Source of the DNA: Tuwongella immobilis
Lineage (GTDB): Bacteria; Planctomycetota; Planctomycetia; Gemmatales; Gemmataceae
Direction of reading: 5' to 3'
Assembly: GCF_901538355.1 (NCBI RefSeq)
Contig: NZ_LR593887.1
Span: forward strand, 6,362,920 to 6,426,919
DNA: 64,000 bases
Part shown: in pieces, positions 42,501 through 64,000 of the stretch
Position numbering within the stretch: position 1 is the first letter of the stretch
Layout of the letters: each line of letters begins with the position of its first letter
The notes under the pieces: model-generated
The model's input: only the letters and a program-made list of their open reading frames with translations
Databases searched by the model: none
What the model was told of the DNA's origin: nothing
Made by a program: the position numbers and the translations under genes

Positions 42501-42980
42501 TTACTCGGAATCGATTTGCAACGATGCGAGAATCGCGGCCAACACGGGAGCGAATGTCGCCTTCTCGGCTTCGACGAATTGCCCCAAGAACAGCACCGGT
42601 CCCAGTGGCGATTGCAACGCCCGCACTTGCGTGGTGACGACGGCATCCAGCGTGATGAAATCGATGTCGTAGCCAATCGCAGGCTGACCGGCCAAACTCG
42701 TCACCGATTCTTCCGCTTCCAGCGAGGGATACTCTTCCTTCAGCGCCTCAAGGGTATCGCGGGCCAGCATTTGCGGCGTTTCGCAATCCGGCCGAAGCGC
42801 GACGAGCAGAAACCCGGTGCCCGGCGGATTCAGCGTGATCGTCCAGGGGACAAACGCCTCGGCATCCTCATCATCGTCATCAATCGGTTCGCCATCCTCG
42901 GTCAACATCTCATCCTCTTCCAGCGTCCAATTTTGGGGATACTGGAAACGCACGCCGTCACGATCAAAGGTGCCAATCAT
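42501..42980 (-). CDS. host hypothetical protein (159 aa), in frame with the prophage integrase
   Basis: From the ATG at 42980 the sequence reads MIGTFDRDGVRFQYPQNWTLEED, a natural start of a small cytoplasmic protein, followed by a very acidic loop (DDDDEDAE) and a beta-type core (TITLNPPGTGFLLVALRP, ITLDAVVTTQVRAL). It looks like a PsbP/DcrB-type domain fold, tentatively. The frame upstream is open and continues into the integrase with no stop, so annotation programs would merge both. I keep it as its own gene because the domain and composition change here. It was probably a host gene whose upstream region was replaced by the prophage. Confidence 0.55.
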   Translation of the reverse strand: MIGTFDRDGVRFQYPQNWTLEEDEMLTEDGEPIDDDDEDAEAFVPWTITLNPPGTGFLLVALRPDCETPQMLARDTLEALKEEYPSLEAEESVTSLAGQPAIGYDIDFITLDAVVTTQVRALQSPLGPVLFLGQFVEAEKATFAPVLAAILASLQIDSE

Positions 42981-44459
42981 AATCGATTCCACGATCGCCC
43001 AAAATTCCCCATCGGGGGCCAAAAAACGCAGAAACCGGATCTCGGGAGGTGCCCCAAGGTCCGGTTTCGAAGAAGAGAAATGCATCAGCGAGTGAGTCGA
43101 AGGCATCATCAGCCGCAAACGCGGTCGGTGTTGGGTTGGTGGAACACCGCTGGGGGCTGATCGGTTCATCGCTCGTGCTGATACCTTTAGGACGGGCGGG
43201 CCGTCTTCTCTCATGGTATCAGGAGTGCTCACTAGCGTCAATCCCCCTGGATTTTCAATGTTTTCCTTTCCACCATGTCCGTAGAGATCACCAGAGATCG
43301 CGCCTGATTGCGCCGCATTTTGCGCCGCTTTTTGCGCCGCCCTTGGAGGCCCCTGCCAGGACTGTGCAGCCTGGAAACTAACGTCTGTGGTGTCGATGTA
43401 ATGCTTCATTGCCACGGTCGGAGAGTTGCCCAGCCACTTTGCGACGATCGCCAGAGGGAAGCTGGCGGCCAGGTCCGACTCGCAGCTTGCTCGGAGCGTG
43501 TGCCAGATGCGAGGCCAAGGCGTGATGCCAGCGCGGCGAATCATCCGCCCGAACGCATTTCGCAGAGGAGCGCCTGCACCGTCCACATCCAACCGGATCG
43601 GTGGATTGAACTCCCGAGGCAACACGAATTCCGCCCCCTGCTCGGCAGCATCCCAGGCAGCGTCCATGTATGGCTTCAGCAGCGGGAAGATTGGCACGAC
43701 CCGAATTCCCGTTTTTGGGCTGCCGACTGTGAACCGCTGCCGATCCCAGTTCACGTCTTCCCATCGCAGCGCGAACGGTTCCGAGGGGGTCCGCAAACCA
43801 GCAAACCGAGCCAGCGCGACAAGCAACCGCCACCACACGTCCGGACATTGCTCGATGACTAATTCCACATCCGAGACGGTGACGTAAGTGTGCCGTTTCG
43901 GCTCAACGGTTCGAGCTGCAACATTATCCCACGGCGGCAGGAAACCAAACTGCCTCGCGGCAGACCGCAGGATCGCTTTCGCATGCACTAATCGAACATT
44001 CTTGGTGGTAGCCTTCAGATTGGAAAGTTCGTCGAAGAATCGCTCCGAATCAGCATGCGTGATCTTCGAAATGACACGATCGCCAAACAACTTGATCATG
44101 ACCGCCGCCGCCAGCCGCTGCGTCCGTACCGATCCCAGCGCGTGCCCTTCGGCAGCCTTTTCGACCAACCATCGTTCCGTGAACTCACGAACCGTCGGGA
44201 TTTTCCGATCCCTTTCGATCAGCCCGACAGCCTCGAGTTTTTCCGCCAGCGCGTCGCCGATGGAGTCCAGCCAAACCGCTGTTTCTCGTGGCAGCGGCTG
44301 ACTCGAAAGCTGGGCCGCCAAGATCATCTCGACATGCCGGCGGACTGACTCCGCATCCTTCTTCGAGATCTTCCCGAGGCGGATGGTCTTGCGTTTGCGA
44401 TCGGAGGACAAAAACTGGATTCGCCGGGTGCCATTCGGGTCATTGACAAGACTGGCCAT
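42501..44459 (-). CDS. prophage tyrosine-type integrase; open frame continues into a host gene (652 codons)
   Basis: ATG at 44459 after GAGGTAAT. Residues 1-190 include an arm-binding/SAM-like core-binding region (VREFTERWLVEKAAEG). The catalytic domain has Arg223 in GLRTPSE, Lys249 in GSPKTG, His320 and Arg323 in WHTLR, and the nucleophile Tyr354 in MKHYIDT; the usual GHS box is GNS, as in other planctomycete integrases I recall. The enzyme part ends near residue 400 in an Ala/Gln-rich tail (AAQKAAQNAAQS). Residues 400-493 have no domain, and 494-652 are the host protein listed separately. It integrates and excises the element and marks its left end. Confidence 0.85.
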   Translation of the reverse strand: MASLVNDPNGTRRIQFLSSDRKRKTIRLGKISKKDAESVRRHVEMILAAQLSSQPLPRETAVWLDSIGDALAEKLEAVGLIERDRKIPTVREFTERWLVEKAAEGHALGSVRTQRLAAAVMIKLFGDRVISKITHADSERFFDELSNLKATTKNVRLVHAKAILRSAARQFGFLPPWDNVAARTVEPKRHTYVTVSDVELVIEQCPDVWWRLLVALARFAGLRTPSEPFALRWEDVNWDRQRFTVGSPKTGIRVVPIFPLLKPYMDAAWDAAEQGAEFVLPREFNPPIRLDVDGAGAPLRNAFGRMIRRAGITPWPRIWHTLRASCESDLAASFPLAIVAKWLGNSPTVAMKHYIDTTDVSFQAAQSWQGPPRAAQKAAQNAAQSGAISGDLYGHGGKENIENPGGLTLVSTPDTMREDGPPVLKVSARAMNRSAPSGVPPTQHRPRLRLMMPSTHSLMHFSSSKPDLGAPPEIRFLRFLAPDGEFWAIVESIMIGTFDRDGVRFQYPQNWTLEEDEMLTEDGEPIDDDDEDAEAFVPWTITLNPPGTGFLLVALRPDCETPQMLARDTLEALKEEYPSLEAEESVTSLAGQPAIGYDIDFITLDAVVTTQVRALQSPLGPVLFLGQFVEAEKATFAPVLAAILASLQIDSE

Positions 44460-44499: not shown

Positions 44500-44539
44500 A
44501 CGCGGTGGGTGCATAGACGGCACCTGCCGCGTTTTTTTT
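44500..44539 (+). terminator. strong plus-strand terminator between integrase and repressor genes
   Basis: 13-bp stem with two G-U pairs (ACGCGGTGGGTGC at 44500-44512, right arm 44520-44532), 7-base loop and then eight T. It is a textbook terminator on the plus strand, although both flanking genes are on the minus strand. Confidence 0.75.
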
Positions 44540-45155
44540 ACGCATGTCGGTATAATTTTGAGGTGATTCGAACAACCGCAACCATTGCCCCATAGATCCG
44601 ATCAGAATCTGTCAGCTTGTGGCTCCAATTATTGTCACTCACCAATCGATTGGAACGAGTCAGTTTCTTGCAGACACACCCTTCAAGCTCTTCGACCCAA
44701 GCGACAACGATTTCTCCCGGCTGGGGGGATGGGTCTGCCCGCACGATAATGTAGTCGCCACTCTGAATATGCTCACTGAGCATTGAATCACCTCGGACGC
44801 GATAGGCAACACATCCGGCAAACGCCTCACCCACCCCGAGGCGTTCTTCTGGATCAGCAGCGTCCGCGCATGCTGGCCCCGCACCGACGTGTCCAAGAAT
44901 CGGGATCTCGATTTCTGCAACCTGTCGGATGGGATGGTTTTCGGGGAGGTATCGCAAAAGAGTCCCTGGAGGCATCCCTAACGCTGCTTCCATCCGCATC
45001 ACGATTGTTGGATCACGTTCGACACCATTCCTTCCGGTTTCAATATGCCCAAGCCCTCCCTGGGTTACGCCGACAAGTTCGGCCAATTCCGCTTGGGTCA
45101 TTCCTTTCCGCTTCCGAGCTTCCTTGACGGCCTCACCAAATGTCTGCTCAGTCAT
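44538..45155 (-). CDS. phage repressor, HTH-XRE plus S24 (LexA-like) peptidase, 205 aa
   Basis: Residues 6-65 are a Cro/C1-type helix-turn-helix (RKRKGMTQAELAELVGVTQGGLGHIETGRNG). Residues 82-200 are an S24 peptidase: the cleavage site Ala92-Gly93 in GHVGAGP, catalytic Ser124 in VRGDSMLSEHI and lysine 163 or 164 in CVCKKL. Such CI-type repressors hold the lysogenic state and cleave themselves when RecA filaments form after DNA damage. It is divergent from the KilA-N gene, with promoters in the 160 bases between. Start at 45155. Confidence 0.93.
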   Translation of the reverse strand: MTEQTFGEAVKEARKRKGMTQAELAELVGVTQGGLGHIETGRNGVERDPTIVMRMEAALGMPPGTLLRYLPENHPIRQVAEIEIPILGHVGAGPACADAADPEERLGVGEAFAGCVAYRVRGDSMLSEHIQSGDYIIVRADPSPQPGEIVVAWVEELEGCVCKKLTRSNRLVSDNNWSHKLTDSDRIYGAMVAVVRITSKLYRHA

Positions 45156-45238: not shown

Positions 45239-45267
45239 TTGACAGGGTTCTATACGCAGCATATTAT
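45239..45267 (+). promoter_or_regulatory. early rightward (PR-like) promoter with an overlapping imperfect operator
   Basis: Consensus TTGACA at 45239, a 17-base spacer and TATTAT at 45262. A 20-bp imperfect palindrome GTATnGAn6TCnATAC (about 45236-45255) covers the -35 box and part of the spacer, a natural place for repressor binding. Transcription would start near 45274. Confidence 0.7.
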
Positions 45268-45316
45268 CACGGTCATGAATCAAATCGTATTGCCGTTTCA
45301 AATGAAGGGCAAAGAC

Positions 45317-45994
45317 ATGACAGCGATGATGCAGCGAGAGATCATTGGCTCGGTTGTCGAAATTCGGGAAGATGGGTTCATCAACGCGACGCAGCTTTGC
45401 AAAGCGGCAGGCAAATTGTTTGCTCACTACATGAGTTCTGGGCCAACGAAGCAGTTCCTTGCGGCCCTGGAGAGCGATATCGGTAAACCGATATCGGCTC
45501 TGATCGAGGTCCGAAAGGGTGGGTCTGGTCCTCAAGGCACCTGGGTCCACCCACGAGTAGCGATCGACTTAGCTCGGTGGTGCAGCCCTCAGTTCGCAGT
45601 GACGGTGAACGGCTGGATCTTCGAGCTGATGACTCGGGGTAGCGCATCGGCACAGCCATCGGTCCCAGCCCAGCCGACACCACCCTTGCCAGCGCCGGAA
45701 TCGTCACCAGCGCCGGACAAAGGCCCGCTCGCTTTGACTCTCAGCCCGCACGCCACGCACTTCGACATTCTCGAATACATGCTTTCTCAGGGGAAGAACC
45801 CCTCAGCGAGGCAAGTCTTTCTGGCCAAGAAGATCACCAAGGCCATCATGCAAGTGGCGGGCTATGAGATGCGTCGAGATGGCCGGATCGACTTTCTGTA
45901 CCTTCGGTTGGTGAGTTTAGCCATCTCGGCCGCTTCGATCATTGATGAGATCATGTCGGAGAAACCCGAAAACTACTTCGGTCTCGATGACTGA
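45317..45994 (+). CDS. KilA-N domain phage protein, 225 aa
   Basis: The KilA-N DNA-binding domain is clear: IIGSVVEIREDGFINATQLCKAAGK and then GPQGTWVHPRVAIDLARWCSPQFAVTVNGWIFELM. A Pro-rich linker (about 115-140) leads to a helical C-terminal part (FDILEYMLSQGKNPSARQVF). It is the first gene of the rightward early operon; KilA-N proteins act in phage development, probably as DNA-binding regulators. The frame is open further back, with ATGs at 45275 and 45302. I choose 45317 because AAGGGC precedes it at ideal spacing and the promoter would start transcription at about 45274, leaving no leader for 45275. Confidence 0.82.
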   Translation: MTAMMQREIIGSVVEIREDGFINATQLCKAAGKLFAHYMSSGPTKQFLAALESDIGKPISALIEVRKGGSGPQGTWVHPRVAIDLARWCSPQFAVTVNGWIFELMTRGSASAQPSVPAQPTPPLPAPESSPAPDKGPLALTLSPHATHFDILEYMLSQGKNPSARQVFLAKKITKAIMQVAGYEMRRDGRIDFLYLRLVSLAISAASIIDEIMSEKPENYFGLDD

Positions 45995-46067: not shown

Positions 46068-46730
46068 ATGACGAACCTCCTCAAAGCCCGCCAGGTGGCC
46101 GAGTACCTCTGCGTACCCTACCGCGAATTCCTTGCCATGGTCGAGGCTGGCCAAGGGCCGGTCTGCATCCTGCTGCCATCTGGCCGCCGTCGGTGGCGGC
46201 TTGCCGATGTCGATGCGTGGGTGGCCTGCCATGCGGTGAGCGTGCCTGCTGCCGCTGCCGCCGTCGCCACTCCGGTGCCTGTCCCACCTGAGCCCGCGCC
46301 TGTCCCCTCACTGAATTGCTGTTCAGGGACAACCGTGCCTGAAACACTTCACAACTTGGATTGCTTGTCCCGGGACAATCAAGGATTTCGAGGGGGACAA
46401 GCGGCTCAAGATGCGGGGACAAGCGCCGCCGGAGAAAATATTCAGGAAGAAAACCAATCAGCATCGACTGATGCAGTTGGGGCGTTGGCTGATCAACTTT
46501 CCGAGCAATCTCTGGAGATTCTACAGGCACTTCCGGAAGATCGAACTTGGCTCAAAACTCCTTCCGTGGCACGTCGCGTAAGTCCTGATATTTCACCGAG
46601 ATCCGGTCGATTCCGCAGCAAAATCAAGCAGCTCAGCGAAAAAGGTCTGATCGAATCGAGCAACAACGGCTTGCGGCTAACAGCAGTTGGATTTGCGGTT
46701 CGGGTGAGGTTCGAAAGCGAGCCCCCCTGA
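46068..46730 (+). CDS. phage DNA-binding regulator with MerR-like N-terminus and winged-helix-like C-terminus, 220 aa
   Basis: Residues 1-55 form a helix-turn-helix of the excisionase/MerR (HTH_17) type (LKARQVAEYLCVPYREFLAMVEAG then WRLADVDAWV). A Pro/Ala linker and a polar linker follow (60-140). Residues 140-215 look like a winged helix (SLEILQALPEDRTWLKTPSVARRVSPDISPRSGRFRSKIKQLSEKGLIESSNNGLRLT). Repeats of a GGGACAA-type palindrome occur inside the linker-coding part and just after the stop codon, so the protein may bind its own locus. It lies 73 bases after the KilA-N gene. Excisionase-like or early regulatory function is likely. Confidence 0.7.
   Translation: MTNLLKARQVAEYLCVPYREFLAMVEAGQGPVCILLPSGRRRWRLADVDAWVACHAVSVPAAAAAVATPVPVPPEPAPVPSLNCCSGTTVPETLHNLDCLSRDNQGFRGGQAAQDAGTSAAGENIQEENQSASTDAVGALADQLSEQSLEILQALPEDRTWLKTPSVARRVSPDISPRSGRFRSKIKQLSEKGLIESSNNGLRLTAVGFAVRVRFESEPP
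46365..46378. promoter_or_regulatory. 14-bp palindrome TTGTCCCGGGACAA, copy 1 (intragenic)
   Basis: Perfect palindrome inside the regulator gene. Half-sites GGGACAA or its near complement occur around it at 46279, 46300, 46326, 46394 and 46416. Confidence 0.6.
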
Positions 46731-46733
46731 TGC

Positions 46734-46769
46734 TTGTCCCGGGACAACAAAAGTGCTTGTCCCGGGACA
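46734..46769. promoter_or_regulatory. pair of 14-bp palindromes, probable operator
   Basis: TTGTCCCGGGACAA at 46734-46747 and a copy with one end base changed at 46757-46770 (12 inner bases perfect). The centres are 23 bases apart, about two helical turns. They begin four bases after the stop of the regulator gene and lie ahead of the excisionase-like gene at 46860. Confidence 0.65.
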
Positions 46770-46804
46770 TCGAGATTCACGCAACCGGTGATACCGTTTG
46801 AATC

Positions 46805-46832
46805 GTGATCGCTGGAGACACCAGCAGATCAC
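46805..46832. other. hairpin ahead of the excisionase-like gene
   Basis: GTGATC-GCTGG / CCAGC-A-GATCAC stem of 11 pairs with one bulged base and the loop AGACA. No U-tract; it may be an operator or an attenuator. Confidence 0.4.
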
Positions 46833-46859
46833 TCAAACTACCTCGAATGCGAGATAAAC

Positions 46860-47093
46860 ATGGCGAAGATCGCAGAACTCAAGAAGCCCGATGAAGTCCC
46901 GAAGCTCACGCTGCGATGCGATGAGCTGGCCCGTGCGATGGGAATCAGCGTCATCAGCGTGCGGCGGCTGGTCAAGAACACCGACATCCCCAAAGTTCGC
47001 CTGCCTGGTTCGCGGGTCATCATTTTCCCGCTCGCTGAGGTCCAAGAATGGCTCTCTCGCCAAGTGACGAAAGGCGGTGAAGCCAATGGGTAA
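46860..47093 (+). CDS. excisionase-like HTH_17 protein, 77 aa
   Basis: A small basic protein with one helix-turn-helix: LRCDELARAMGISVISVRRLVKNTDIPKVRLPGSRVIIFPLAEVQEWLSR, the layout of MerR/excisionase DNA-binding proteins. In the prophage it may be the recombination directionality factor or a small regulator. Its start lies behind the double palindrome, so that site may control it. It overlaps the next gene's start by eight bases. Confidence 0.8.
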   Translation: MAKIAELKKPDEVPKLTLRCDELARAMGISVISVRRLVKNTDIPKVRLPGSRVIIFPLAEVQEWLSRQVTKGGEANG

Positions 47094-47562
47094 GCAGGTC
47101 GTATTGAAGCGGGCTCCAATCCGAGGCGATTCCGAATTGGCTGAATTCTGCGATGGTACGAATCGCGCATTACGATTCGTGCGTTGCATCCTGGAAGTCG
47201 CACAACAACGTGGAACGATCACACCCGAAATCTTGGGGCATCTGTACGCGGTCCTGTTGGAGGCAGCCTGGGAATGGTCCGAACAGACGTTCGGAACCGC
47301 CGAGCAACGCGGTCCCAAGGGAGCTTTGCTGCACCTCGAAAAGGAATCCCGCGAAGCCGTCGAGGCGATCGGGACCGACAACCTGACCGAGGAACTGGCC
47401 GACTGTCAGATCCTCATCTGGGACGCTGCACGCCGCGCTGGGCTGGGACCAGTCGAGCTGCTCCATGCGGCCAGACAGAAGCTCGAAAAGAACATGGCCC
47501 GCCAGTGGCCGATGCCCACGTCCGATCAGCCCGTCGAGCATATCCGGGAGGGCGAAGAATGA
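47086..47562 (+). CDS. dATP/dGTP pyrophosphohydrolase-like (DUF550/MazG-like) protein, 158 aa
   Basis: The C-terminal half has the helical MazG-like pattern: ALLHLEKESREAVEAIG (metal-binding ExxE-type glutamates) followed by LTEELADCQILIWDAARRAGLG with ELAD, and the closing LEKNMARQWP seen in the DUF550 family. Such proteins hydrolyse dNTPs, perhaps to adjust the nucleotide pool for phage replication. The ATG at 47086 overlaps the stop of the previous gene. The N-terminal 60 residues are helical and unassigned. Confidence 0.7.
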   Translation: MGKQVVLKRAPIRGDSELAEFCDGTNRALRFVRCILEVAQQRGTITPEILGHLYAVLLEAAWEWSEQTFGTAEQRGPKGALLHLEKESREAVEAIGTDNLTEELADCQILIWDAARRAGLGPVELLHAARQKLEKNMARQWPMPTSDQPVEHIREGEE

Positions 47563-48116
47563 CACCCGAGCAACTGGTGGAGGCGCACCTGGATTTGCCC
47601 ACGATGATTGTGTCGGCTTACTGTAAGTCGCGGCCATCGATGCGAAAGCACTTCGACGATCTGATGTCCTATGGCATGGAGGCTCTTTGGGAGTCGGCAC
47701 AGCGGTACGAGTCAGATATTGCCTTATTTTCAACCTATGCCATCCACCGGATTCGGTGGTCGTGTGTCGATACCGCGAGACGGATTTACGGCCGGCCTGG
47801 TCGATCGAACAAGCGATCGCCGATGCTGTTCACCGACTTTTTTTCGGGCAACTTCCGGTCTGTTTCCAGGGCCGAACACGATATTTTCGCTGTTGAGTGT
47901 GACATCCCGGATGATGATCCGATGACAAACGGTCAGTGGGATAGGCTGCTCCGATGTCTTAGTCCTCATTACCGCAAAGTTGTCGAGATGCGGTTTCGTC
48001 TTGGCAAAAGCTACGCTTGGATCGCCCGAGACATGGGTATCAATGTTCACACTGCTATGTCGATCGTGTCGCAGGCCATCAAGCGAATGCGGAAGTTTTC
48101 AGAGGTGGCCGCATGA
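47559..48116 (+). CDS. phage-encoded sigma-70-family factor 1, 185 aa
   Basis: Starts with an ATGA overlap (47559). Region 2: LMSYGMEALWESAQRYESDIALFSTYAIHRIRWSCVDTAR near residues 35-75, the conserved helix for -10 recognition and core binding. Region 4 near 130-180: LSPHYRKVVEMRFRLGKSYAWIARDMGINVHTAMSIVSQAIKRM, a helix-turn-helix for -35 recognition. It probably redirects host RNA polymerase to phage promoters. Followed by a second sigma factor in an overlapping frame. Confidence 0.85.
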   Translation: MTPEQLVEAHLDLPTMIVSAYCKSRPSMRKHFDDLMSYGMEALWESAQRYESDIALFSTYAIHRIRWSCVDTARRIYGRPGRSNKRSPMLFTDFFSGNFRSVSRAEHDIFAVECDIPDDDPMTNGQWDRLLRCLSPHYRKVVEMRFRLGKSYAWIARDMGINVHTAMSIVSQAIKRMRKFSEVAA

Positions 48117-48769
48117 AGCACAACCCCGAACTGCTCACGGAACGGCCTGCAACGCAACCTATTCTCGAAAAGAAACGGTGGCTCGCAACCCGAAGCGGGA
48201 GGATGCCACGGTGCGAATTGGACTTCATCTCCGCCCAAGAGCAAAGGACGCTGATTGAAAATCACATCAACTTTGCCAAATGGGTTGTCAATGGGATAGC
48301 GTCCGGCTTTAGCCCTCGTACCCAACGAAACCATTATGACGCGATGCTGAGCGAGGCATTCTTGGCGTTGGTCGCTGCTGCAAAGCGGTTCAACCCAGCC
48401 AAGAACATCAAGTTCAGTACCTATGCGGGATTGTGGATTCGCTCTTATATCCACCAGTATTTCTGCACACTGCCAAAGGAAATGGGCTACGGGGCAGCTA
48501 TCACGGCTTGCGGTGAGGATCAACCAATCGACTTTCTCGAACAGTTGCCGTCGAAGGTGATTGATGGGTGGGATGAGGAAGAATGGCAGCAGATGTTGCG
48601 ATGCCTGCCGCACCGATCCAAACGCATCATCGAACTGCGGTACAGAATCGGACTTACGCTGCAAGAAACCGCCGCAAATCTTGGCATCACTCGGGAACGG
48701 GTACGCCAACTCGAAAACAAGGCACTGACTCGAATCCTGGACTATGGAACCATTCCGGAGGCACCATGA
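48113..48769 (+). CDS. phage-encoded sigma-70-family factor 2, 218 aa
   Basis: ATG at 48113 overlaps the stop of sigma factor 1 (ATGA). Region 2: the phrases MLSEAFLALVAAAKRFNPAKNIKFSTYAGLWIRSYIHQYF are a classical group-3 pattern. Region 4: LPHRSKRIIELRYRIGLTLQETAANLGITRERVRQLENKALTRI, with the RERVRQLE phrase typical of primary-type sigma factors. It is more canonical than the first factor. Two adjacent sigma genes could drive successive transcription classes. Confidence 0.88.
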   Translation: MKHNPELLTERPATQPILEKKRWLATRSGRMPRCELDFISAQEQRTLIENHINFAKWVVNGIASGFSPRTQRNHYDAMLSEAFLALVAAAKRFNPAKNIKFSTYAGLWIRSYIHQYFCTLPKEMGYGAAITACGEDQPIDFLEQLPSKVIDGWDEEEWQQMLRCLPHRSKRIIELRYRIGLTLQETAANLGITRERVRQLENKALTRILDYGTIPEAP

Positions 48770-49194
48770 GCGCGATCGACATCCTGAACCGACTCGCCGA
48801 TGCTGGCGAGGCCCATCTGAAGCAAGAAGCCGAGAACCGTGAGCGGCAAGAGCGTGAACGGCTGGCACATGCATGGAGCAGCTTCCTCGCAACGGCACGC
48901 ACCATCCTTGGTGACATATTCCCGATTCCTGAAACAGCACCGGCTTCCTTCGACGGGAAACACACGTTCTCGCTGCCCTTCTATCCCTTTGGGATCGCGG
49001 TCTGGGCAGACATCTATCACAACATCACTTGGAAGCTGTCTGGTTTCCGTGTTGTGGTCCAGAAAGAGTTTTCACGCATCCAAACGGCTGATCTGCTGCC
49101 AGAGCAATTCCAGTATTGCCAACGGCTCGACGTGGCCATCGCACTGGCCCGCCGCGTTGCCAATCAGCCAATCTCCACCACCCAACCCAACTGA
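48766..49194 (+). CDS. hypothetical phage protein, 142 aa
   Basis: Starts with an ATGA overlap at 48766. The N-terminus is a charged helix (ADAGEAHLKQEAENRERQERERLAHAW). The centre has aromatic beta segments (GKHTFSLPFYPFGIAVWADIYHNITWKLSGF). No recognised domain. The location between the sigma factor and metallopeptidase-like genes says only that it is an early gene. Confidence 0.65.
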   Translation: MSAIDILNRLADAGEAHLKQEAENRERQERERLAHAWSSFLATARTILGDIFPIPETAPASFDGKHTFSLPFYPFGIAVWADIYHNITWKLSGFRVVVQKEFSRIQTADLLPEQFQYCQRLDVAIALARRVANQPISTTQPN

Positions 49195-49203
49195 GGAACG
49201 CCC

Positions 49204-49755
49204 ATGGACGGAATCGAAGTCTGCACCCGGAAAAACCGGCCTGATCTGTACGAGATGATGAAGGATCTCATTGCAAAGCATCATGCCCATTTGTGCGAAG
49301 CGGACATTGTCATCTGTTTCAACTTCAATTGGAAGCCTGATTCCGACGGGCATCTTAAGCTGGTCGAAGTGACCCGAGCTAGCGCTGTCACCCAATGTCT
49401 GTCTGCAATCCGGGTCGATCTGATCATCACTCTGAACCAGCAGCATTTTGAAAAAATGGACGATACGCAGAAACGGGCATGTCTGGATGAAGCCCTTTGC
49501 CGTTGTAAAGAACGGCAGGATCAATCCGGAAGGACCATTGGTTATCGGGTCAGCAAAATCGACTTCTGCGGCATGATGGAAAACATCAAGCGGTTCGGCC
49601 CATGGCAGACCACGTTGAAAACTGTCCAACGGCTGCTCAACGCCGAGGAGGAGCCGGGTCTGTTTGACGCTGTCTCCGAAGAAATCGCCGACGCCGAATA
49701 CGAGCTCTCAGAATCGGCAACCATCCCCATGCTGCCGGAGGGCCAATCATCATGA
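49204..49755 (+). CDS. phage metallopeptidase-family protein without the zinc motif, 183 aa
   Basis: The overall pattern recalls the putative phage metallopeptidase family: an ADIVICFNFNWKPDSDGHLKL strand set, VTRASAVTQCLSAIRVDLIITLNQQHFEKMDDTQKRACLDEALCRC and later IDFCGMMENIKRFGPWQTTL. In that family the helix after the DTQ-type phrase carries DHELCH (a zinc HExxH variant). Here it reads DEALCRC, so both metal histidines are missing. The protein may keep a structural or binding role. It starts after a GAGGAA-like site, nine bases past the previous stop. Confidence 0.6.
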   Translation: MDGIEVCTRKNRPDLYEMMKDLIAKHHAHLCEADIVICFNFNWKPDSDGHLKLVEVTRASAVTQCLSAIRVDLIITLNQQHFEKMDDTQKRACLDEALCRCKERQDQSGRTIGYRVSKIDFCGMMENIKRFGPWQTTLKTVQRLLNAEEEPGLFDAVSEEIADAEYELSESATIPMLPEGQSS

Positions 49756-49931
49756 CAACCGAGCTACTGTGCCCGCGCTGCGGGCGGCATCTGTGGACGG
49801 ATCGCCGCGATGGTCGCCGGTATTGTCCCGGCCTGTTGTGTGCAGGCCCACCGGCTGCTGCTGCAACACCGCACACTACTAACAGTCCAGACATCCAGAC
49901 ATCACGAAGGATCGATCCAAGTGAAAATTAA
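49752..49931 (+). CDS. small zinc-ribbon protein, 59 aa
   Basis: Too short for many gene finders. ATG at 49752 overlaps the previous stop (ATGA). The protein reads MTTELLCPRCGRHLWTDRR and then YCPGLLC, giving CPRC and CPGLLC, a four-cysteine zinc ribbon. The tail is Pro/Ala/Thr-rich. Function unknown; such mini zinc ribbons are frequent in phage early operons. It overlaps the next gene by 11 bases. Confidence 0.6.
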   Translation: MTTELLCPRCGRHLWTDRRDGRRYCPGLLCAGPPAAAATPHTTNSPDIQTSRRIDPSEN

Positions 49932-50199
49932 GCTCTTGCAGGGGCTGGAGGGTGATCGCCCGCCCGAGCACCTGCGTGAGGCCCTGGTCGCCGAACACGC
50001 GGCCAGGGTGGAGCGGGAGGAGCCGCTACACCCTGAACCACGAACCGGGAAATGCTGGTGCTGCGGCATTCCAGCCCCGGGCACAGCCTCGCGGGAACGA
50101 CGCGATTGGCATGCACGCGAGTTCATGAAAGGCATCTGCGAACGCGAAATCTATTGCCCCGCCTGCTTCGCGGAGTGGGGCTGGCCGCCGGAGGAATGA
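49921..50199 (+). CDS. small cysteine-rich phage protein, 92 aa (GTG start)
   Basis: The GTG at 49921 has AAGGATC ten bases upstream and overlaps the zinc-ribbon gene. The protein has CWCCG near 41-45 and a later CEREIYCPACF, together a likely zinc-binding site, with a helical N-terminus (RPPEHLREALVAEHAARVE). No named family. It ends with an ATGA-like junction to the next gene. Confidence 0.6.
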   Translation: MKIKLLQGLEGDRPPEHLREALVAEHAARVEREEPLHPEPRTGKCWCCGIPAPGTASRERRDWHAREFMKGICEREIYCPACFAEWGWPPEE

Positions 50200-50201
50200 C
50201 C

Positions 50202-50405
50202 ATGAAGCGGATCATCGAGGCCATCGCGTCCGAAAGCGCTCGCCTGGCACGTGTAACCAAAGAAGAGCACCAATTCTTGTGCATGATGTCGCGGGAAAAC
50301 TACAAGTCCTGGTTCTGTGATTGTCAATTTTATCTGGGCGACGGGTGGTCCGTATGGGCACATCCTCGCCCCTCAAAAGCTAAGAGCCAACAACCGGAGG
50401 GATGA
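50202..50405 (+). CDS. hypothetical phage protein, 67 aa
   Basis: ATG at 50202, seven bases after GGAGG; an in-frame ATG at 50196 overlaps the previous stop and is possible. The protein is small with KRIIEAIASESARLARVTKEEHQFLC and a Trp/aromatic C-terminal half (YKSWFCDCQFYLGDGWSVWAHP). No recognised family. Confidence 0.55.
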   Translation: MKRIIEAIASESARLARVTKEEHQFLCMMSRENYKSWFCDCQFYLGDGWSVWAHPRPSKAKSQQPEG

Positions 50406-51538
50406 CCGTGACCATGTCCGTTCTCAGCAAGATCCAGACGACAGCTCCTGCGTTACCGTCGCGGATCTTTCTCTATGCCCCCGAAAAATGGGGCAAATCG
50501 AGCTTTGCGGCATACGCACCAAAGCCCATTTTTGTGATGACCGAGGGCGAAACCGGCCTGCTTTCCTTGGTGGAATCGGGGCAAGTACCCGAGACTGCTC
50601 ACTTCCCGGAAGACTGCCGGACCTGGAGCCAACTGCAAGAGTGCGTCACGGCGCTGCGTCGAGAGCCCCACGAATTCCGATCCTTGGTGATCGACACCGC
50701 AAACGGTGCCGAGAGATTGCTGTCGCAGCACGTCTTGGACACCGAATACAACGGCAAGATGACGGGCAAGACGGGCTACATGTCGTTCGGGGAAGGCGAT
50801 CGGGCCTGTGTTCCGCATTGGGTGCAGTTCCTCCAATCGCTGGATGATCTTCGCGTCAAAAAGAAGATGATGATCATCCTGTTGAGCCATGTCCGCACCA
50901 AGACGGTGAGCAACCCAAACGGCCCTGACTATGACCAGGTTCGCCCTGAGGGTATCGAACGATTATGGTCGCTCACACATAAGTGGGCAGACATCATCGG
51001 CAATGGTGAGTTGGACATCCGAGTCCAGGATGAGAAAGTCACCCACACCGGTGGCCGGGTCTTGGTCACGGCGGGAAATGCCGCGGTGGTGGCGGGGAAC
51101 CGCTACGGCCTGCCGGATCGTATCCCATGCGGCAAGTCCGCCGAAGCGGGCTGGCAGAACTTTGCCAGCGCCGTCCGTGCAGCCAAATCTCGGGGCCAGC
51201 GTCAGCCGATTCCTGAGCCGGCGAAACGGGTGGATGCAGAACCGCAACCGCAACCAGCCCCAACGCTGCCACCACCGCCACCAACGCCAGTGTTAACCCC
51301 GGAAACTGCACCGCCACCGCCACCAACGACAGTTGCCGACTTGCCGACAAACACCGTTGGCAAGCTCTCCACCCGTGCCATCGAACTGATGCACAAACTC
51401 AAGCTCTCTTGGACGGAGGCGCGTCAACAGTACAGCCCGTTGATTGGGATGCCGGAAGGGGAGGTTTACAAGCTCACCGATCTGACTCCGTCGCAACTTG
51501 AACATCTGATTGAGATGCTGGAGGAGAGCCAAAAGTGA
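50402..51538 (+). CDS. phage RecA-like/Sak4-type AAA ATPase, 378 aa
   Basis: Walker A is APEKWGKSS at residues 26-34; a Walker-B-like strand occurs at FRSLVIDTANG near 93-103 and IILLSHVRTK near 160 fits the sensor/strand 4 of RecA-like phage ATPases. Residues 270-320 are a proline-rich linker with PPPPP runs, and the C-terminus is helical. This family (AAA_24/Sak4) supports single-strand annealing recombination and pairs with an exonuclease; the next gene is one. Start ATG 50402 (ATGA overlap); GTG 50408 and ATG 50414 are alternatives with better ribosome-site spacing. Confidence 0.8.
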   Translation: MTVTMSVLSKIQTTAPALPSRIFLYAPEKWGKSSFAAYAPKPIFVMTEGETGLLSLVESGQVPETAHFPEDCRTWSQLQECVTALRREPHEFRSLVIDTANGAERLLSQHVLDTEYNGKMTGKTGYMSFGEGDRACVPHWVQFLQSLDDLRVKKKMMIILLSHVRTKTVSNPNGPDYDQVRPEGIERLWSLTHKWADIIGNGELDIRVQDEKVTHTGGRVLVTAGNAAVVAGNRYGLPDRIPCGKSAEAGWQNFASAVRAAKSRGQRQPIPEPAKRVDAEPQPQPAPTLPPPPPTPVLTPETAPPPPPTTVADLPTNTVGKLSTRAIELMHKLKLSWTEARQQYSPLIGMPEGEVYKLTDLTPSQLEHLIEMLEESQK

Positions 51539-52182
51539 AGATCCTGAAGCTCACCCAGGGCAGTCCTGATTGGCTGGCCTGGCGGCAGCTCGGGATCGGA
51601 GGCAGTGACGCCCCCATCATCATGGGGGTGTCACCATACTCGACCCGCGAAAAGCTGCTTGGTCAGAAACTGGGATTGGTCCCCAAAGACGAAGCCTATG
51701 CCATGCGCCGTGGCAGCCGGCTCGAACCGTCCGCTCGTGGCATGTACCAGATCCGCGAAGGGTACAGTAGCGCCGAGCCCGTCTGCGTCATCCACCCGGA
51801 TTTCGATTGGTGCCGCGCATCGCTCGATGGGCTTGTGCTCGGCGCGATGGATCAGCCGTCGCATGTGTTGGAGATCAAGTGTTGGTCGTGGCAGAAGCAT
51901 GACTATGTGCTGAATGGCATCGTTCCCGATGAGGTCTACCCGCAGATCCAGCATCAATTGTTCTGCTGCGAATTGGATCGTTGCGACTTGGTCAGCTACA
52001 ACCCGAGCGAGAAATTTCTCGCCACGGGCGAAGAGTATGCGTGCCTGACGGTCAAGGCAGACGCTACCTACCAAGCAAGCATGTTCAAGGAGGAACTGCG
52101 GTTCTGGGAGGAACTGAACGAACGGCTCCGAGCTCGCACCGTCCGATCCGGGTGGCAGGCACCCATCACGGAGGACCTATGA
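51535..52182 (+). CDS. YqaJ-type phage exonuclease (lambda-exonuclease fold), 215 aa
   Basis: The PD-(D/E)xK nuclease centre is visible: GIGGSDAPIIMGVSPYSTREKL at 20-41 (the YqaJ entry motif), Asp99 in SLDGLV, and Glu113-x-Lys115 in VLEIKCW. It would degrade one strand from double-strand ends and feed the RecA-like partner encoded just upstream (ATGA overlap). This gives the prophage its own homologous recombination module. Confidence 0.9.
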   Translation: MKILKLTQGSPDWLAWRQLGIGGSDAPIIMGVSPYSTREKLLGQKLGLVPKDEAYAMRRGSRLEPSARGMYQIREGYSSAEPVCVIHPDFDWCRASLDGLVLGAMDQPSHVLEIKCWSWQKHDYVLNGIVPDEVYPQIQHQLFCCELDRCDLVSYNPSEKFLATGEEYACLTVKADATYQASMFKEELRFWEELNERLRARTVRSGWQAPITEDL

Positions 52183-53216
52183 AGCTCCCCATCCTGGATT
52201 GGCTGCGGATGCCGTCGTTGCGGCTCTGCTCCCCGGCGGCGGTCGCTCTCTGGGCCCAGATGATCCCGGCGATGGTGGAGTCACCGACGCCGGGCCATCT
52301 CGTGGATGCCACCGGTGATCCGCTCGACGACGCCAGCATCGCCAAGCTAACAGGGGTTAGCGCAGATGGTGTATCTGTGCTAGTCAGCGAGTTGGTCAAG
52401 GCTGGGATTCTGGCGGTTGAAGGAAAGACGATCGTCTCTCCGATGGTCCGGCGGGAGATGGGGTTCCGACGAGTTTGTTCACTATCAGGAAAGGCCGGTG
52501 CCCCCCATCGTTGGCCTGTCCGAAATACCAACGCTCAAACGGGCCACTGCCAACCTGTTAAGGTACCTGTTGAGGTACCTGATCACGTACCTGTTAAGGT
52601 ACCTGTTGAGGTACCTGATCACGTACCTGTTAAGGTACCTGTTGAGGTAGGGCTTTTTGGCCCCCCCCATACCCCCCCAGAGACTAAGACAGAAGAAAAG
52701 ACAGAAGACAAAAAGACATTCCGTGCTGCGCACGGGCGGGGCGGTGCCCCGCACGTAGCCCGACAATCTGACGCTGACCAATGCGACAAGCAGAAGGCGA
52801 ATCATCCCAAAGCTGTACAGTATTGGTGCGACTCTTGGCAGAAACTTCGAGGCGTGAAGTATCCGTTCAATGGCGGCAAGGATGCCAAGACGATCTCGTG
52901 GATGCTGGCTCAGGTCGAAGGCGATTTGGCCCGCTTCCAGGCGATCATCGATGGGTATCTGGCGAGCGTCGAAACCTACGTCATCAACCAGGGCCATTCC
53001 CTTGGTGTGCTGCGGTCGCAGTTCTCGACATGGTACGCACGCGCTGAAGCACCCCAACAATCGCCAGAAACGCCCCGTCTGTTCGTTCCGACGGCATCAG
53101 ATGACCCAAACCTCACCTACGAAGAAAAGATCCGAATATTGGTCGAGGAGGAGGACCGGCTCAGCCCCGAGGAGCAACGGGAAAGGTTGTTGCGGCAAAT
53201 GGGGGGCAGCGAATGA
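52179..53216 (+). CDS. phage replication protein with internal iterons, 345 aa
   Basis: ATG at 52179 after GAGGA, with an ATGA overlap. The N-terminal 90 residues look like a winged helix (SIAKLTGVSADGVSVLVSELVKAGILAVEG). Residues 126-157 are eight 4-residue repeats (PVKV, PVEV, PDHV) encoded by 12-bp DNA repeats. A charged Lys/Glu/Asp stretch follows (TKTEEKTEDKKTF), then a helical domain (WMLAQVEGDLARFQAIIDGYLASVE) and an acidic C-terminus. The plan, N-terminal DNA binding with an origin inside its own gene, is like lambda O. The next gene could load a helicase. No helicase gene itself is in the window. Confidence 0.7.
   Translation: MKLPILDWLRMPSLRLCSPAAVALWAQMIPAMVESPTPGHLVDATGDPLDDASIAKLTGVSADGVSVLVSELVKAGILAVEGKTIVSPMVRREMGFRRVCSLSGKAGAPHRWPVRNTNAQTGHCQPVKVPVEVPDHVPVKVPVEVPDHVPVKVPVEVGLFGPPHTPPETKTEEKTEDKKTFRAAHGRGGAPHVARQSDADQCDKQKANHPKAVQYWCDSWQKLRGVKYPFNGGKDAKTISWMLAQVEGDLARFQAIIDGYLASVETYVINQGHSLGVLRSQFSTWYARAEAPQQSPETPRLFVPTASDDPNLTYEEKIRILVEEEDRLSPEEQRERLLRQMGGSE
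52554..52649 (+). repeat. eight 12-bp tandem repeats (candidate origin iterons)
   Basis: Units CCTGTTAAGGTA, CCTGTTGAGGTA and CCTGATCACGTA repeat in a 36-bp order, exactly 96 bases, with GGTACC or CGTACC at each joint. Downstream (about 52680-52722) the plus strand is purine-rich and A-rich. Confidence 0.85.
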
Positions 53217-53878
53217 GCGATACCCCGAAATGGTACACCGATCTGCTTGTCGTCTATGGCCCCATTCTGGGTGCCGACCAAAAGGGTGTGATGACTGTTC
53301 TATTACAGTGGTTCAGACTGTTCTTGCAGTGTGGATACAGACGAGAGGAGATCGAGGACGGATTTGCCACACTCGCCAAGGATCCGAACCGCCCGACGTA
53401 CCGCCAAGAGATGCTGGTCTACATTCAAAGGGCGATTCATCAGTCGCGTGCAGCGGCCAAACAGAGCGAGCGAGTTGAGGAGGAGACTGCGCCACCCTGC
53501 GACATTTGCGGCGGCAGTGGCATCGTCGTGGTACCTCGACTGGAAGACGTTGAGTTCGGGGCATGGAAATTCGTCCAATCGATTCCTGGCAGCAAGCCTC
53601 GGCGCTGGACTTCCACGGTGGCATGCAGTTGTCCCAAGGGGGCTCGAACTGCCGAGTTCACCCGCTCGAAGGACGCCCAGGGTAAGCATCGAGTCACGCG
53701 GCCGATGCGGACGCTGGTCAACTACGAATCGCGGAACCCACACTGGCGGGAGCAATTGGCGGAAGAGGAAGAACGTCAGAAGCTCCAACGTGAAGTCGAG
53801 GGCAAAACAGCCAACTTGGATCACGAGCAAGGGCGAGTCCGCAAAATCGGGGTCATCCCGAAGGAGTGGCTGGAATGA
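53213..53878 (+). CDS. phage protein with CxxCxGxG zinc motif, 221 aa
   Basis: ATGA overlap with the replication gene. N-terminal helical domain (WYTDLLVVYGPILGADQKGVMTVLLQWFRLFLQ), then a zinc finger CDICGGSG near 95 paired with CSCPKG near 138, then a highly charged C-terminal helix (REQLAEEEERQKLQREVEGK). The context suggests a replication accessory, perhaps a helicase-loader-like protein, but no AAA motif is present, so the function is not assigned. Confidence 0.65.
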   Translation: MSDTPKWYTDLLVVYGPILGADQKGVMTVLLQWFRLFLQCGYRREEIEDGFATLAKDPNRPTYRQEMLVYIQRAIHQSRAAAKQSERVEEETAPPCDICGGSGIVVVPRLEDVEFGAWKFVQSIPGSKPRRWTSTVACSCPKGARTAEFTRSKDAQGKHRVTRPMRTLVNYESRNPHWREQLAEEEERQKLQREVEGKTANLDHEQGRVRKIGVIPKEWLE

Positions 53879-54243
53879 TCGAGCTCGAATTGCCATGGCC
53901 ACCGTCGGTCAACAGCTACTGGCGAACCTTCCAAGGCAGAATGATCATCAGCCGGGAAGGGCGAGAGTATCGCAAAGCGGTGCAAGCTCTGCTGCTGCCG
54001 CTCGGTCCAGCGATCCGCCAGCACGCCACCGAGCGGCTGGCAGTGTTGCTCCAGGTGTTTCCTCCGGATCGGCGGCGGAGAGACTTGGACAATCTGGGCA
54101 AGGCTCTGCTCGACGCCCTCGCTGCGGCGGGGGTTTACGAGGATGACAGTCAGATCGATGATTTTCACGTGATTCGACGGCGGGTCGTGAGCGGCGGCAA
54201 GGTCTTGGTGGCGATCAATGTCATGGAGGAGACAACGTGCTGA
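53875..54243 (+). CDS. rusA: Holliday junction resolvase RusA-like protein, 122 aa
   Basis: The N-terminal phrase LELPWPPSVNSYWR is the RusA start motif. The three catalytic aspartates correspond to Asp70 and Asp72 in RRRDLDNLGKALLDAL and Asp91 in EDDSQID, the same numbers as in E. coli RusA. It resolves Holliday junctions produced by phage recombination and replication. ATGA-type overlap with the preceding gene; it overlaps the CsrA gene by seven bases. Confidence 0.94.
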   Translation: MIELELPWPPSVNSYWRTFQGRMIISREGREYRKAVQALLLPLGPAIRQHATERLAVLLQVFPPDRRRRDLDNLGKALLDALAAAGVYEDDSQIDDFHVIRRRVVSGGKVLVAINVMEETTC

Positions 54244-54452
54244 TTCTGAAGCGATACATCGGGCAGCGGATCTTGCTGCAACTGCCGAACGGCCAGGAAG
54301 TTACCGTTGTTGTCACCGAGATTGACCGTCGGTCGGCTGCCGTCAAGGTTGGTATCGAGGCACCCCGGTCGATCAGCATTGTCCGGGCTGAGATTGCTGG
54401 CAGGGTGGAGCCAGCGGCCAAGGTAGAGTGGGATGATCCGGTGTCGAACTGA
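54237..54452 (+). CDS. prophage-encoded CsrA homologue, 71 aa
   Basis: GTG start at 54237 overlapping rusA. The CsrA strand pattern is kept: MLILKRYIGQRILLQL, EVTVVVTEID and SAAVKVGIEAPRSISIVRAEI, aligning with the host csrA (MLVLSRKKNESIVV ... KVRLGIVAPKDVPVHRQEV). The RNA-binding Arg in IVRAEI is kept. The loop after strand 1 is longer, and the C-terminus ends in PAAKVEWDDP. It could modulate host or phage mRNA translation or titrate the host system. Confidence 0.78.
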   Translation: MLILKRYIGQRILLQLPNGQEVTVVVTEIDRRSAAVKVGIEAPRSISIVRAEIAGRVEPAAKVEWDDPVSN

Positions 54453-54461
54453 GGAGATGCG

Positions 54462-55193
54462 ATGATTCATTACCATGGGACTCCGTGTGGTGCGACTCGC
54501 ATCGACGTGGCACGATTTCTCTCCGGTCGTCATGCTCTGATTCCGTTTGTGCGGTCAGAAGACATCGGGACCGCAGCCGAATTTTGCCAATCGTTCTGTG
54601 TTGACAATGGCGCGTTCTCTGCGTGGAAACAGGGCGTGGTGATTGATTGGGAAACGTACTACGAATTTGTGCGAGAGTGGCACCGTCACCCAGCATTTGA
54701 CTGGGCTGTCATTCCGGACGTGATCGATGGTTCAGAGAATGATAATGATCGGCTAGTTGAGCAATGGCCGATGGACCTGCGGTCGATCGGTGTACCAGTC
54801 TGGCATCTCCACGAATCGCTTGACCGCCTGGAGCATCTGACACGCAGCTTTCACAGGGTTGCGTTAGGATCATCAGGAGATTATTCGTCCCCTGGCACCT
54901 CGCGGTGGTGGTCACGCATGGGTGATGCCATGCGTGTAGCTTGTGACGAACACGGCAGACCAAAGGCAAAATTGCATGGTCTACGGATGCTGGACCCTGC
55001 AATTTTCCAGCGGTTGCCTTTGTCGTCAGCGGACAGCACAAATGCCGTCAGAAATTCGTCAAACTATTCACGGTTTGGCACATACATCCCCCCGAATGCG
55101 AGTACACGAATGGCTATCATCGCCGAACGTATTGAGTCGCATCAATCGCGGGCTGTTTTCGGTTCATCAGATCAACTGGTAATGTTCGACTGA
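54462..55193 (+). CDS. phage protein possibly of the tRNA-guanine-transglycosylase/DpdA-like superfamily, 243 aa
   Basis: I recall this as a widespread phage family without function. Visible motifs: FCVDNGAFSAWKQG near 45-58 (like the DSGGF phrase of transglycosylases), AVIPDVIDGSENDNDRLV near 84, VWHLHESLDRL near 112, VALGSSGDYSSPG near 133 and LPLSSADSTNA near 190, where a catalytic aspartate of a TIM barrel could sit. Related enzymes insert 7-deazaguanine bases into DNA or tRNA. No preQ0 synthesis genes are in the window. The family resemblance is a motif-level inference. Start ATG at 54462 after GAGGAG. Confidence 0.5.
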   Translation: MIHYHGTPCGATRIDVARFLSGRHALIPFVRSEDIGTAAEFCQSFCVDNGAFSAWKQGVVIDWETYYEFVREWHRHPAFDWAVIPDVIDGSENDNDRLVEQWPMDLRSIGVPVWHLHESLDRLEHLTRSFHRVALGSSGDYSSPGTSRWWSRMGDAMRVACDEHGRPKAKLHGLRMLDPAIFQRLPLSSADSTNAVRNSSNYSRFGTYIPPNASTRMAIIAERIESHQSRAVFGSSDQLVMFD

Positions 55194-55217
55194 CCGGCCA
55201 GGGGCAAAAAAACGATC

Positions 55218-55262
55218 TCCCCAGGGAACCACTTTCATTTCTGGAGTGGACATCCCTGGGGA
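55218..55262. terminator. long hairpin before the packaging genes
   Basis: Outer stem TCCCCAGGGA / TCCCTGGGGA and inner CCACT / AGTGG around an 11-base loop. On the minus strand it is followed by U7 (A-run at 55207-55213); on the plus strand no U-tract follows. It separates the early genes from the terminase operon. Confidence 0.6.
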
Positions 55263-55357
55263 TCTCACACTCAGATCTTACCCTTTGTCCGCCTCCCAAC
55301 CACACACATGAGCTCGCCAGGAACAATCCAGGAGTGGAATGGATCTGGAGGCCAGGT

Positions 55358-55927
55358 ATGTTGACCCCGAAGCAGGAACGTTTTTGTCAGGAATACATTG
55401 TCGATCTGAATGCTTCGGCGGCGGCTCGACGTGCTGGGTATTCCCACCGCACTGCTGGCAGCATTGGCGAGGAACTCCTGAGAAAACCTGAAATTTCGGC
55501 GCGCATTCGAGAGTTGAAGGACGAGCAGGCACGCCGCACTCAGATCACGGCGGATCAGGTGCTGGCGGAGTTGGCTCGGATCGCTTACATAGATCCGCGG
55601 AAGCTGTTTCATCCGGACGGCTCACTCCGATCGATCTCAGATTTGGATGAGGATACTGCCCGAGCGATTGCAGCGATCGATATAGAGGAACGCTTGTCTG
55701 GACGTGATCCGGTCATTCGCACAACCAAGAAGATCAAGCTATGGAACAAGGTGGAGGCGCTGGACCGGCTGGCTCGGCACTTTGGGCTGTTCACGGAAAA
55801 GGTCGAAGTAAATAGCAAGCTAACAGTGACCCCGATGGTGCCCGTGGAGGAGATGACCGATGAGCAGCTCGCCGAAGTCGCAAGAGGCAGCGGCGGAACT
55901 CCTCCGTCGGCGTCAGGCGCGTCGTGA
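55358..55927 (+). CDS. phage terminase small subunit, 189 aa
   Basis: The N-terminal motif LTPKQERFCQEYIVDLNASAAARRAGYS and the following helix are typical of Terminase_2 small subunits, which bind the phage pac/cos site. A central ITADQVLAELARIAYIDPRKLF and a C-terminal low-complexity end complete the protein. ATG at 55358 with GGAGG at good spacing. It overlaps the large subunit by 68 bases. Confidence 0.9.
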   Translation: MLTPKQERFCQEYIVDLNASAAARRAGYSHRTAGSIGEELLRKPEISARIRELKDEQARRTQITADQVLAELARIAYIDPRKLFHPDGSLRSISDLDEDTARAIAAIDIEERLSGRDPVIRTTKKIKLWNKVEALDRLARHFGLFTEKVEVNSKLTVTPMVPVEEMTDEQLAEVARGSGGTPPSASGAS

Positions 55928-57446: not shown

Positions 57447-57491
57447 TCGAGGCTCCATCGGAACAATCCCTCAACACGCTGGGGGATGCCG

Positions 57492-61902: not shown

Positions 61903-61930
61903 GGCCATTCCCATCGACGGATGATCCGCG

Positions 61931-61981
61931 TTCAGGCGGGGCAATCTTCGGGAAACAACTCCCGATATTGCCCCGCCTGAA
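61931..61981 (+). terminator. terminator-like hairpin after the head-associated gene
   Basis: 15-bp perfect stem TTCAGGCGGGGCAAT / ATTGCCCCGCCTGAA with a small inner GGG/CCC pairing. It is followed by ATTCATTTC rather than a pure U-run. It lies in the 136-base gap before the next structural gene. Confidence 0.7.
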
Positions 61982-62038
61982 TTCATTTCACGGTCTGCGT
62001 GAACAATCCAAGAAATCCCACTTGGAGAACGCAAGACG

Positions 62039-63412: not shown

Positions 63413-63423
63413 GGAGTCCGCCT

Positions 63424-63924: not shown

Positions 63925-64000
63925 GTGATGCGATTGAGATCAGCTTGACGTCCTACGATGAATATCGCGGCGGACAGCGTCAACGCAGGAAATTTCATTT
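63921..64000 (+). CDS. truncated phage gene (N-terminus only)
   Basis: ATG at 63921 overlaps the previous stop (ATGA). Only the first 26 codons are in the window (MSDAIEISLTSYDEYRGG and so on). Product unknown. Confidence 0.5.
   Translation, partial: MSDAIEISLTSYDEYRGGQRQRRKFH

Follow-up and report, generated by a model that had tools for sequence, protein, structure and literature searches.

A 64,000-nucleotide stretch of the Tuwongella immobilis chromosome (hereafter, the window) holds a prophage whose genes can be listed from an integrase to a terminase and a Mu-like portal. In its early region, between genes for a CI-like repressor and a KilA-N protein on one side and an AlpA/excisionase-like gene on the other, lies the gene of a helix-turn-helix (HTH) protein that we call HTH-A, and in and behind this gene copies of a 14-bp palindrome and of its halves are crowded into 492 bp (46279-46770; Table 1). 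The original prediction, made from the sequence alone, had placed two perfect palindromes, one nearly perfect palindrome and five isolated half-sites within about 500 bases, and all were found exactly there; its gene calls, an HTH protein at 46068-46730 and an AlpA/excisionase-like protein at 46860-47093, also hold. As it had noted, the cluster lies partly in coding sequence, with seven half-sites inside the HTH-A gene, and the last two palindromes (46734 and 46757) stand 23 bp apart, 5' of the excisionase-like gene.

Density of the sites and constraint on the DNA

The half-sites TGTCCC and GGGACA occur 11 times in the cluster, compared with 0.27 expected from base shuffles (maximum of 4 in 5000 shuffles). 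They are phased at 21-23 bp, and inverted copies are present too. When the whole 6,690,754-base chromosome was scanned, the exact 13-mer TTGTCCCGGGACA was found at this single locus, so that the palindrome is not common genome-wide, as the original prediction had required. With up to two mismatches, 11 scattered sites were found in the rest of the chromosome and 6 for a reversed control pattern, which is near the control level. Within the prophage, the palindromes are confined to 46279-46770, so their distribution is not of the stoperator type.

The half-sites within the gene occupy codons 71-118 and thus fall entirely within a disordered linker of HTH-A. The AlphaFold (AF2) model has confident winged-HTH (wHTH) domains at residues 1-55 and about 135-220, and residues 57-132 between them have a predicted local distance difference test (pLDDT) score below 50. 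Seven half-sites compare with 0.92 expected in the gene from codon-usage sampling and 1.25 from within-gene codon shuffling; none of 5000 recodings reached seven in either synonymous-codon test, and a full palindrome is expected within the gene in 0.2-0.8% of recodings. Because synonymous recoding never gives the observed number of half-sites, the signal lies in the DNA rather than in the protein, and the sequence is constrained as DNA. The expectation that codon choice rather than protein sequence keeps the sites was therefore borne out.

Table 1 Features of the site cluster and of the surrounding prophage in the window
Feature	Position	Strand	Remarks
Integrase	42501-44459	-	
CI-like repressor (HTH_3 + Peptidase_S24)	44538-45155	-	
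Early rightward promoter, strong sigma-70-like	45239-45267	+	TTGACA-17-TATTAT, 11/12 consensus positions
KilA-N protein gene	45239-45994	+	Listed from upstream TTG
HTH-A gene	46068-46730	+	N-terminal HTH_17/BldC-like wHTH (residues 1-55), linker, C-terminal MarR/TubR/CggR-like wHTH
Half-site TGTCCC	46280-46285	+	Linker codon 71
Half-site TGTCCC	46301-46306	+	Codon 78; 21 bp past half-site 46280
Half-site GGGACA	46326-46331	-	Codon 87; part of 3-mismatch copy CTGTTCAGGGACAA at 46319-46332
Perfect palindrome TTGTCCCGGGACAA	46365-46378	strandless	Within HTH-A linker codons 100-104
Half-site GGGACA	46394-46399	-	Codon 109; 22 bp past GGGACA of palindrome 46365-46378
Half-site GGGACA	46416-46421	-	Codon 117; 22 bp past half-site 46394
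A-rich stretch	46428-46463		58% AT; directly 3' of in-gene cluster; AT-rich in L019 too
Perfect palindrome TTGTCCCGGGACAA	46734-46747	strandless	4 bp 3' of HTH-A stop; centre at ~-64 of putative AlpA-operon promoter
Near-perfect palindrome TTGTCCCGGGACAT, one mismatch	46757-46770	strandless	Centre at ~-41 of putative AlpA-operon promoter
Putative extended -10 TGATACCGT	46789-46797	+	TGCTACCGT at equal distance in L019; weaker TGGTAGTGT in L021
AlpA/excisionase-like HTH_17 gene	46860-47093	+	First gene past palindromes
Candidate replisome organizer	52179-53216	+	Function predicted from layout and weak family hits
Eight palindromic 12-bp iterons (ACCTGTTAAGGT type)	52553-52649	+	In replisome-organizer linker; 36-bp super-repeat

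Sibling loci and the proposed reader of the sites

The home genome contains four more HTH-A loci (L019, L020, L021 and L022), each with a repeat array: it occupies the linker and the DNA directly behind the gene in L019 and L021, as in the window, and lies 0.2-0.3 kb behind the gene in L020 and L022. The repeat words differ among them. L019, whose HTH-A is 66% identical to that of the window in the alignment, keeps TGTCCC-type sites, several of them at other positions; the core of its two downstream palindromes measures 11 bp (TGTCCCGGACA type), compared with 12 bp in the window. In L021 HTH-A (32% identical), five repeats with the core AGCCA stand in the gene at intervals of exactly 21 bp; three more AGCCA-core copies follow 3' of the stop codon, and one inverted copy is present. 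L022 HTH-A is 28% identical to that of the window and the L020 frame is broken by a TAG; both loci carry GGGCAA in 11-bp tandem repeats (GGGCAATCAA). The synonymous-recoding result was repeated in L021 (5 half-sites or repeats in the gene, 0.6-0.8 expected, 0/5000 recodings) and in L019 (9 half-sites, 1.6-2.5 expected, P <= 0.0006).

A related arrangement was found at L113, in a prophage of another Gemmataceae genus. Its gene order is that of the window: a CI/S24-like gene is followed by a P22_AR_N antirepressor, an HTH_17 protein, the array GGGACATTCCAGGACATTTGCGGGACATTTCGGGACAT and then another HTH_17 protein. Its array is of GGGACA(T) type, is phased at 10-11 bp and lies behind the HTH_17 gene. 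The protein before the array has 100 amino acids, lacks the C-terminal wHTH and matches L021 HTH-A at 36% over 50 residues; its HTH_17 domain is likely homologous to that of HTH-A, short of proven orthology. The CI/S24-like repressor of this locus (L113 15218-15874) has an HTH_17 N-terminal DNA-binding domain in place of HTH_3.

Across 800-900 bp from the HTH_17 start, a phased-repeat test was positive (P <= 0.005) at five of the six array loci (window, L020, L021, L022 and L113) and at 1 of 29 unrelated HTH_17 loci, that one being a REP-like extragenic repeat. This test was used in place of a 7-mer count test, which missed the L020 and L022 arrays. L019 was not flagged, and its evidence is the codon test. 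The repeats are spaced at 21-23 bp in the window and at 21 bp in L021, while L020, L022 and L113 have spacings of 10-12 bp; such phasing is consistent with proteins bound cooperatively along the same face of the helix. The conservation that the original prediction had looked for in related prophages thus applies to the layout and not to the letters of the 14-mer, which have 11-bp-core versions in L019 and are replaced by other words elsewhere. Its link between the site cluster and the adjacent HTH protein gains from the DNA-level clustering and the recurring architecture, and its interpretation, with cooperative binding and possible spreading or road-block control, is supported in part.

These comparisons also bear on the alternative that the half-sites bind nothing and arose incidentally, from tandem duplication or from the repetitive Pro/Val/Ala-rich composition of the linker. 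Two half-sites do lie in PVP codons, and the L021 repeats are in-frame 21-bp units. The synonymous-codon tests, the presence of the same words in non-coding DNA past the stop codon and their uniqueness in the genome all oppose this explanation, which is disfavoured and to which we give almost no weight.

With moderate confidence, we read the cluster as a cis-linked operator array bound by HTH-A, which would thereby control itself and the AlpA-led early operon. Of the genes that can be recognised from the window, HTH-A alone lies next to the array at each of the five home loci. In L020 and L022, 1.7-2.1 kb separate the AlpA gene from the array; L021 and L022 lack KilA-N in the array region, and a CI was not found in L022. 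The CI proteins of the window and L021 are 80% identical, with near-identical recognition helices, yet the repeats differ (TGTCCC vs AGCCA). The window and L019 have the half-site in common and show 94% DNA identity in the HTH_17 coding region, although their CI proteins are only 47% identical. By association, the adjacency of the arrays and this pattern of identities point to HTH-A, and to its N-domain first: the N-terminal HTH_17 domain appears the more likely reader of the half-sites, compared with the C-domain.

Structure comparison gave matches of the HTH-A N-domain (AF2) to the BldC chains of 6ama and 6amk (TM-target 0.67-0.74), and the C-domain resembles MarR, RosR, TubR and CggR with Z of ~10-11, a generic winged-HTH result. 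The best family matches of the protein are to an excisionase/transcription regulator (phrog_66), and no replication-initiator family matched it in the family libraries searched, which are incomplete. Among its relatives, the L113 homologue passes HTH_17 (29.6) and L022 passes Phage_AlpA (27.3 vs 21).

The sites could also be real operators that another prophage protein reads, namely the AlpA-like protein (46860), KilA-N (45239), CI (44538) or a phage sigma factor, a possibility that we consider rather unlikely. AlpA-like proteins are HTH_17 DNA binders, two of the palindromes precede the AlpA gene, and AlpA is 70% identical between the window and L019, both of which have TGTCCC. Against this stand the distance of AlpA from the L020 and L022 arrays, the fact that KilA-N and CI are not beside every array, and a separate TAACACGTGTTA-type repeat that L019 has in the gap between CI and KilA-N. 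CI was rejected as the reader because of its high identity in L021 despite the other repeat, and because it does not accompany every array. The CI-KilA-N gap of the window has no copy of the palindrome with up to three mismatches allowed, so the sites are not placed as CI/LexA-type operators. A host regulon or LexA-like motif was rejected since the chromosome has no other exact site. We set aside an RNA hairpin or terminator on the basis of a T-run and terminator scan, which found no T-run and made no terminator call at the palindromes.

The putative AlpA-operon promoter and the replication-origin alternative

The window and L019 align without gaps from the HTH-A stop codon through the motif TGNTACCGT, and in both the palindrome centres lie ~25 and ~49 bp 5' of this motif. 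With the transcription start assumed to be 7 bp past the -10-like motif, the centres fall near -41 and -64, which are typical activator positions. These positions suggest activation of the AlpA operon, together with feedback on the early operon via the in-gene sites. We propose that HTH-A binds the TGTCCC/GGGACA half-sites cooperatively and that the palindromes behind the stop codon would place it at about -41 and -64 of a putative AlpA-operon promoter with an extended -10 and without a recognisable -35. The in-gene sites, 3' of the early promoter at 45239, would allow HTH-A to feed back on its own operon via looping or slowed read-through. We lean to a combination of AlpA-promoter activation with HTH-A autorepression. 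The binder, the promoter, the looping or roadblock and whether regulation is positive or negative are all inferred from sequence.

Several findings weigh against this interpretation. A consensus promoter scan reports nothing at 46789, and the -10-like motif of L021 (TGGTAGTGT) is weak. HTH-A of the window scores 18 bits against Pfam HTH_17, below the gathering score of 27. The geometry of the palindromes differs by 1 bp between the window and L019, which is odd for one dimer. The remaining three points are shared with a different function of the cluster: in L020 and L022 the arrays consist of simple tandem 11-bp units, lie far from the AlpA gene and are more iteron-like in appearance, the A-rich stretch at 46428-46463 follows the in-gene cluster and recurs in L019, and GGGACA arrays of similar phasing lie in replication-initiator genes of other phages and Gemmataceae.

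That function, the main and a serious rival to which we assign an appreciable minority chance, is that of a lambda-O-like replication origin: the cluster would be an iteron array, HTH-A an initiator with sites in its own linker codons, and the A-rich stretch an unwinding element. Repeats inside the gene's linker, a trait of the lambda O type, are indeed present, with seven half-sites in codons 71-118. Elsewhere, TGTCCCGGGACA arrays occur in genes of replication-initiator type, namely in a linker-like part of L067 (22-bp period), in L068, a replication initiation protein (PHROG 1408, E 1.8e-13), and in L082, and in Gemmataceae GGGACA arrays lie in or behind replisome-organizer-type genes (L116 and L125). 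No comparable AT-rich stretch was seen directly past the array of L021.

Opposing an origin at HTH-A is a separate replisome-organizer candidate in the same prophage, with 12-bp iterons of its own. The candidate is 100% identical in L019, whereas HTH-A, CI and KilA-N diverge, as would be expected if the distal gene were the replication module and HTH-A regulatory. Arrays in the matching distal region are also found in L020 and L022. HTH-A itself sits in a regulatory block between CI/KilA-N and AlpA with excisionase/transcription regulators as its best families. The conserved distance of two palindromes from the -10-like motif argues in the same direction. The family score of the candidate is weak (phrog_270 at 0.023), and its assignment draws on layout and a 30% match to a protein in Pseudanabaena phage Pam1, unnamed there; its iterons (52553-52649) are the probable origin, separate from the HTH-A cluster. 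The same iterons are identical in L019, and comparable 33-bp arrays lie at 13447-13555 in L020 and 13677-13785 in L022.

A role in excision, partition or incompatibility, as a centromere-like array rather than in transcription or replication, seems very unlikely. The C-domain does resemble TubR among many wHTH proteins (Z ~11), and HTH_17 recombination directionality factors such as RdfS form filaments near attachment (att) sites (PMC11963761). The TubR likeness is generic, as MarR, RosR and CggR score equally, and the array is ~2-4 kb from the integrase end, the expected att location. No TubZ or ParA gene was recognised beside the array, although no systematic search for them was made.

None of the known systems that we compared is matched in full by the HTH-A cluster. 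The BldC family binds direct repeats head-to-tail (PMC5859096), and RdfS is an HTH_17 regulator that also controls promoters of its integrated element (PMC11963761). HTH-A resembles BldC and RdfS/AlpA-type proteins in its predicted HTH_17/MerR-like wHTH fold and in its putative, helically phased direct-repeat sites; unlike BldC and RdfS, it carries another wHTH beyond a long disordered linker, and its array words are longer, GC-rich, partly palindromic and inside its own coding sequence. Lambdoid origins lie mid-gene in the gene of their initiator (PMC7466680). The cluster resembles lambda O in having repeats in the middle of a predicted DNA-binding protein's own gene, with an A-rich stretch behind them, but a separate replisome-organizer candidate has in-gene iterons, and the array continues as promoter-proximal palindromes. 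The repressor of cluster A mycobacteriophages has two DNA-binding domains and many sites, with a proposed action on initiation and elongation (PMC9283540), and HTH-A resembles it in its two predicted DNA-binding domains and its many sites. The stoperators of these mycobacteriophages are asymmetric, 13 bp long and scattered across the genome (PMC9283540), unlike the palindromes and half-sites here, which stay within ~0.5 kb.

If HTH-A reads these sites, the coding sequence of a regulator is at the same time its target, and the five prophage-like elements of this chromosome form a natural series of co-diverged protein-site pairs. Such a series would make it possible to ask which of the domains determines specificity and how prophages resident in one cell escape cross-talk. 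Phage regulation has been little studied in this phylum. A speculative extension, which we doubt more than we believe, is that Gemmataceae prophages inherit an HTH_17 regulator and its operator array fused as one unit, with linker-coding DNA as the binding site, so that specificity would change as a block. Resident prophages would then use codes that differ in part (TGTCCC in two geometries, AGCCA and GGGCAA), with less cross-regulation. Should the cluster be a second origin-like array instead, these prophages would carry two in-gene iteron systems, which is also unusual.

Neighbouring prophage genes and the motif outside the genome

Past AlpA, the prophage encodes a dATP/dGTP pyrophosphohydrolase-like protein, two sigma-like proteins, a phage metallopeptidase, a Sak4-like protein and a YqaJ exonuclease, and further genes include the replisome-organizer candidate, RusA, the terminase and the Mu-like portal. 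The sigma-70-family frames overlap (47559-48116 and 48017-48769) and are present in L019 too. When window positions 46068-64000 are compared with L019, the replisome-organizer gene is identical and the genes for the metallopeptidase, exonuclease and RusA are nearly so, while CI, KilA-N, HTH-A and AlpA are divergent; the two prophages show modular mosaicism, judged from their sequences. KilA-N probably starts at a later ATG than the TTG of Table 1. The integrase frame 42501-44459 continues without a stop into ~200 more residues resembling a separate protein, and the L019 integrase has its own stop; the extension is possibly an att-generated fusion with a host gene.

Protein searches with HTH-A found no relatives in viral contigs, genome contigs or phages, nor outside the home genome among 59 relative genomes, and a profile search of other genomes of the class returned nothing beyond HTH_17-level matches. 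The sequences of two informative viral profile matches (L058 and L059) are those of L021 and L022, and these matches apparently come from the same species as the home genome. GGGACA triplets at 9-12 bp were found in 13 of 95 Gemmataceae genomes, at 22 places compared with 2 for the reversed control. The contexts of the places inspected varied: two were replisome-organizer-like, and several seemed to be coding or extragenic repeats. The motif by itself thus does not reveal function.

In Actinobacteria, exact palindrome pairs at the examined loci proved to be insertion-sequence ends with a DDE integrase-core transposase, and the clusters of the same letters in L063-L066 and L069 belong to actinobacterial elements, with FtsK/TraB-like or Spd-like genes nearby; both were rejected as unrelated contexts. 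At L070-L074, L084 and L089, the insertion-sequence end has the form TGTCCCGGGACA-N11-TGTCCCGGGACA, with the same geometry, and often lies beside tRNA-like genes, and the L089 transposase is of the DDE integrase-core type (Pfam rve and rve_3).
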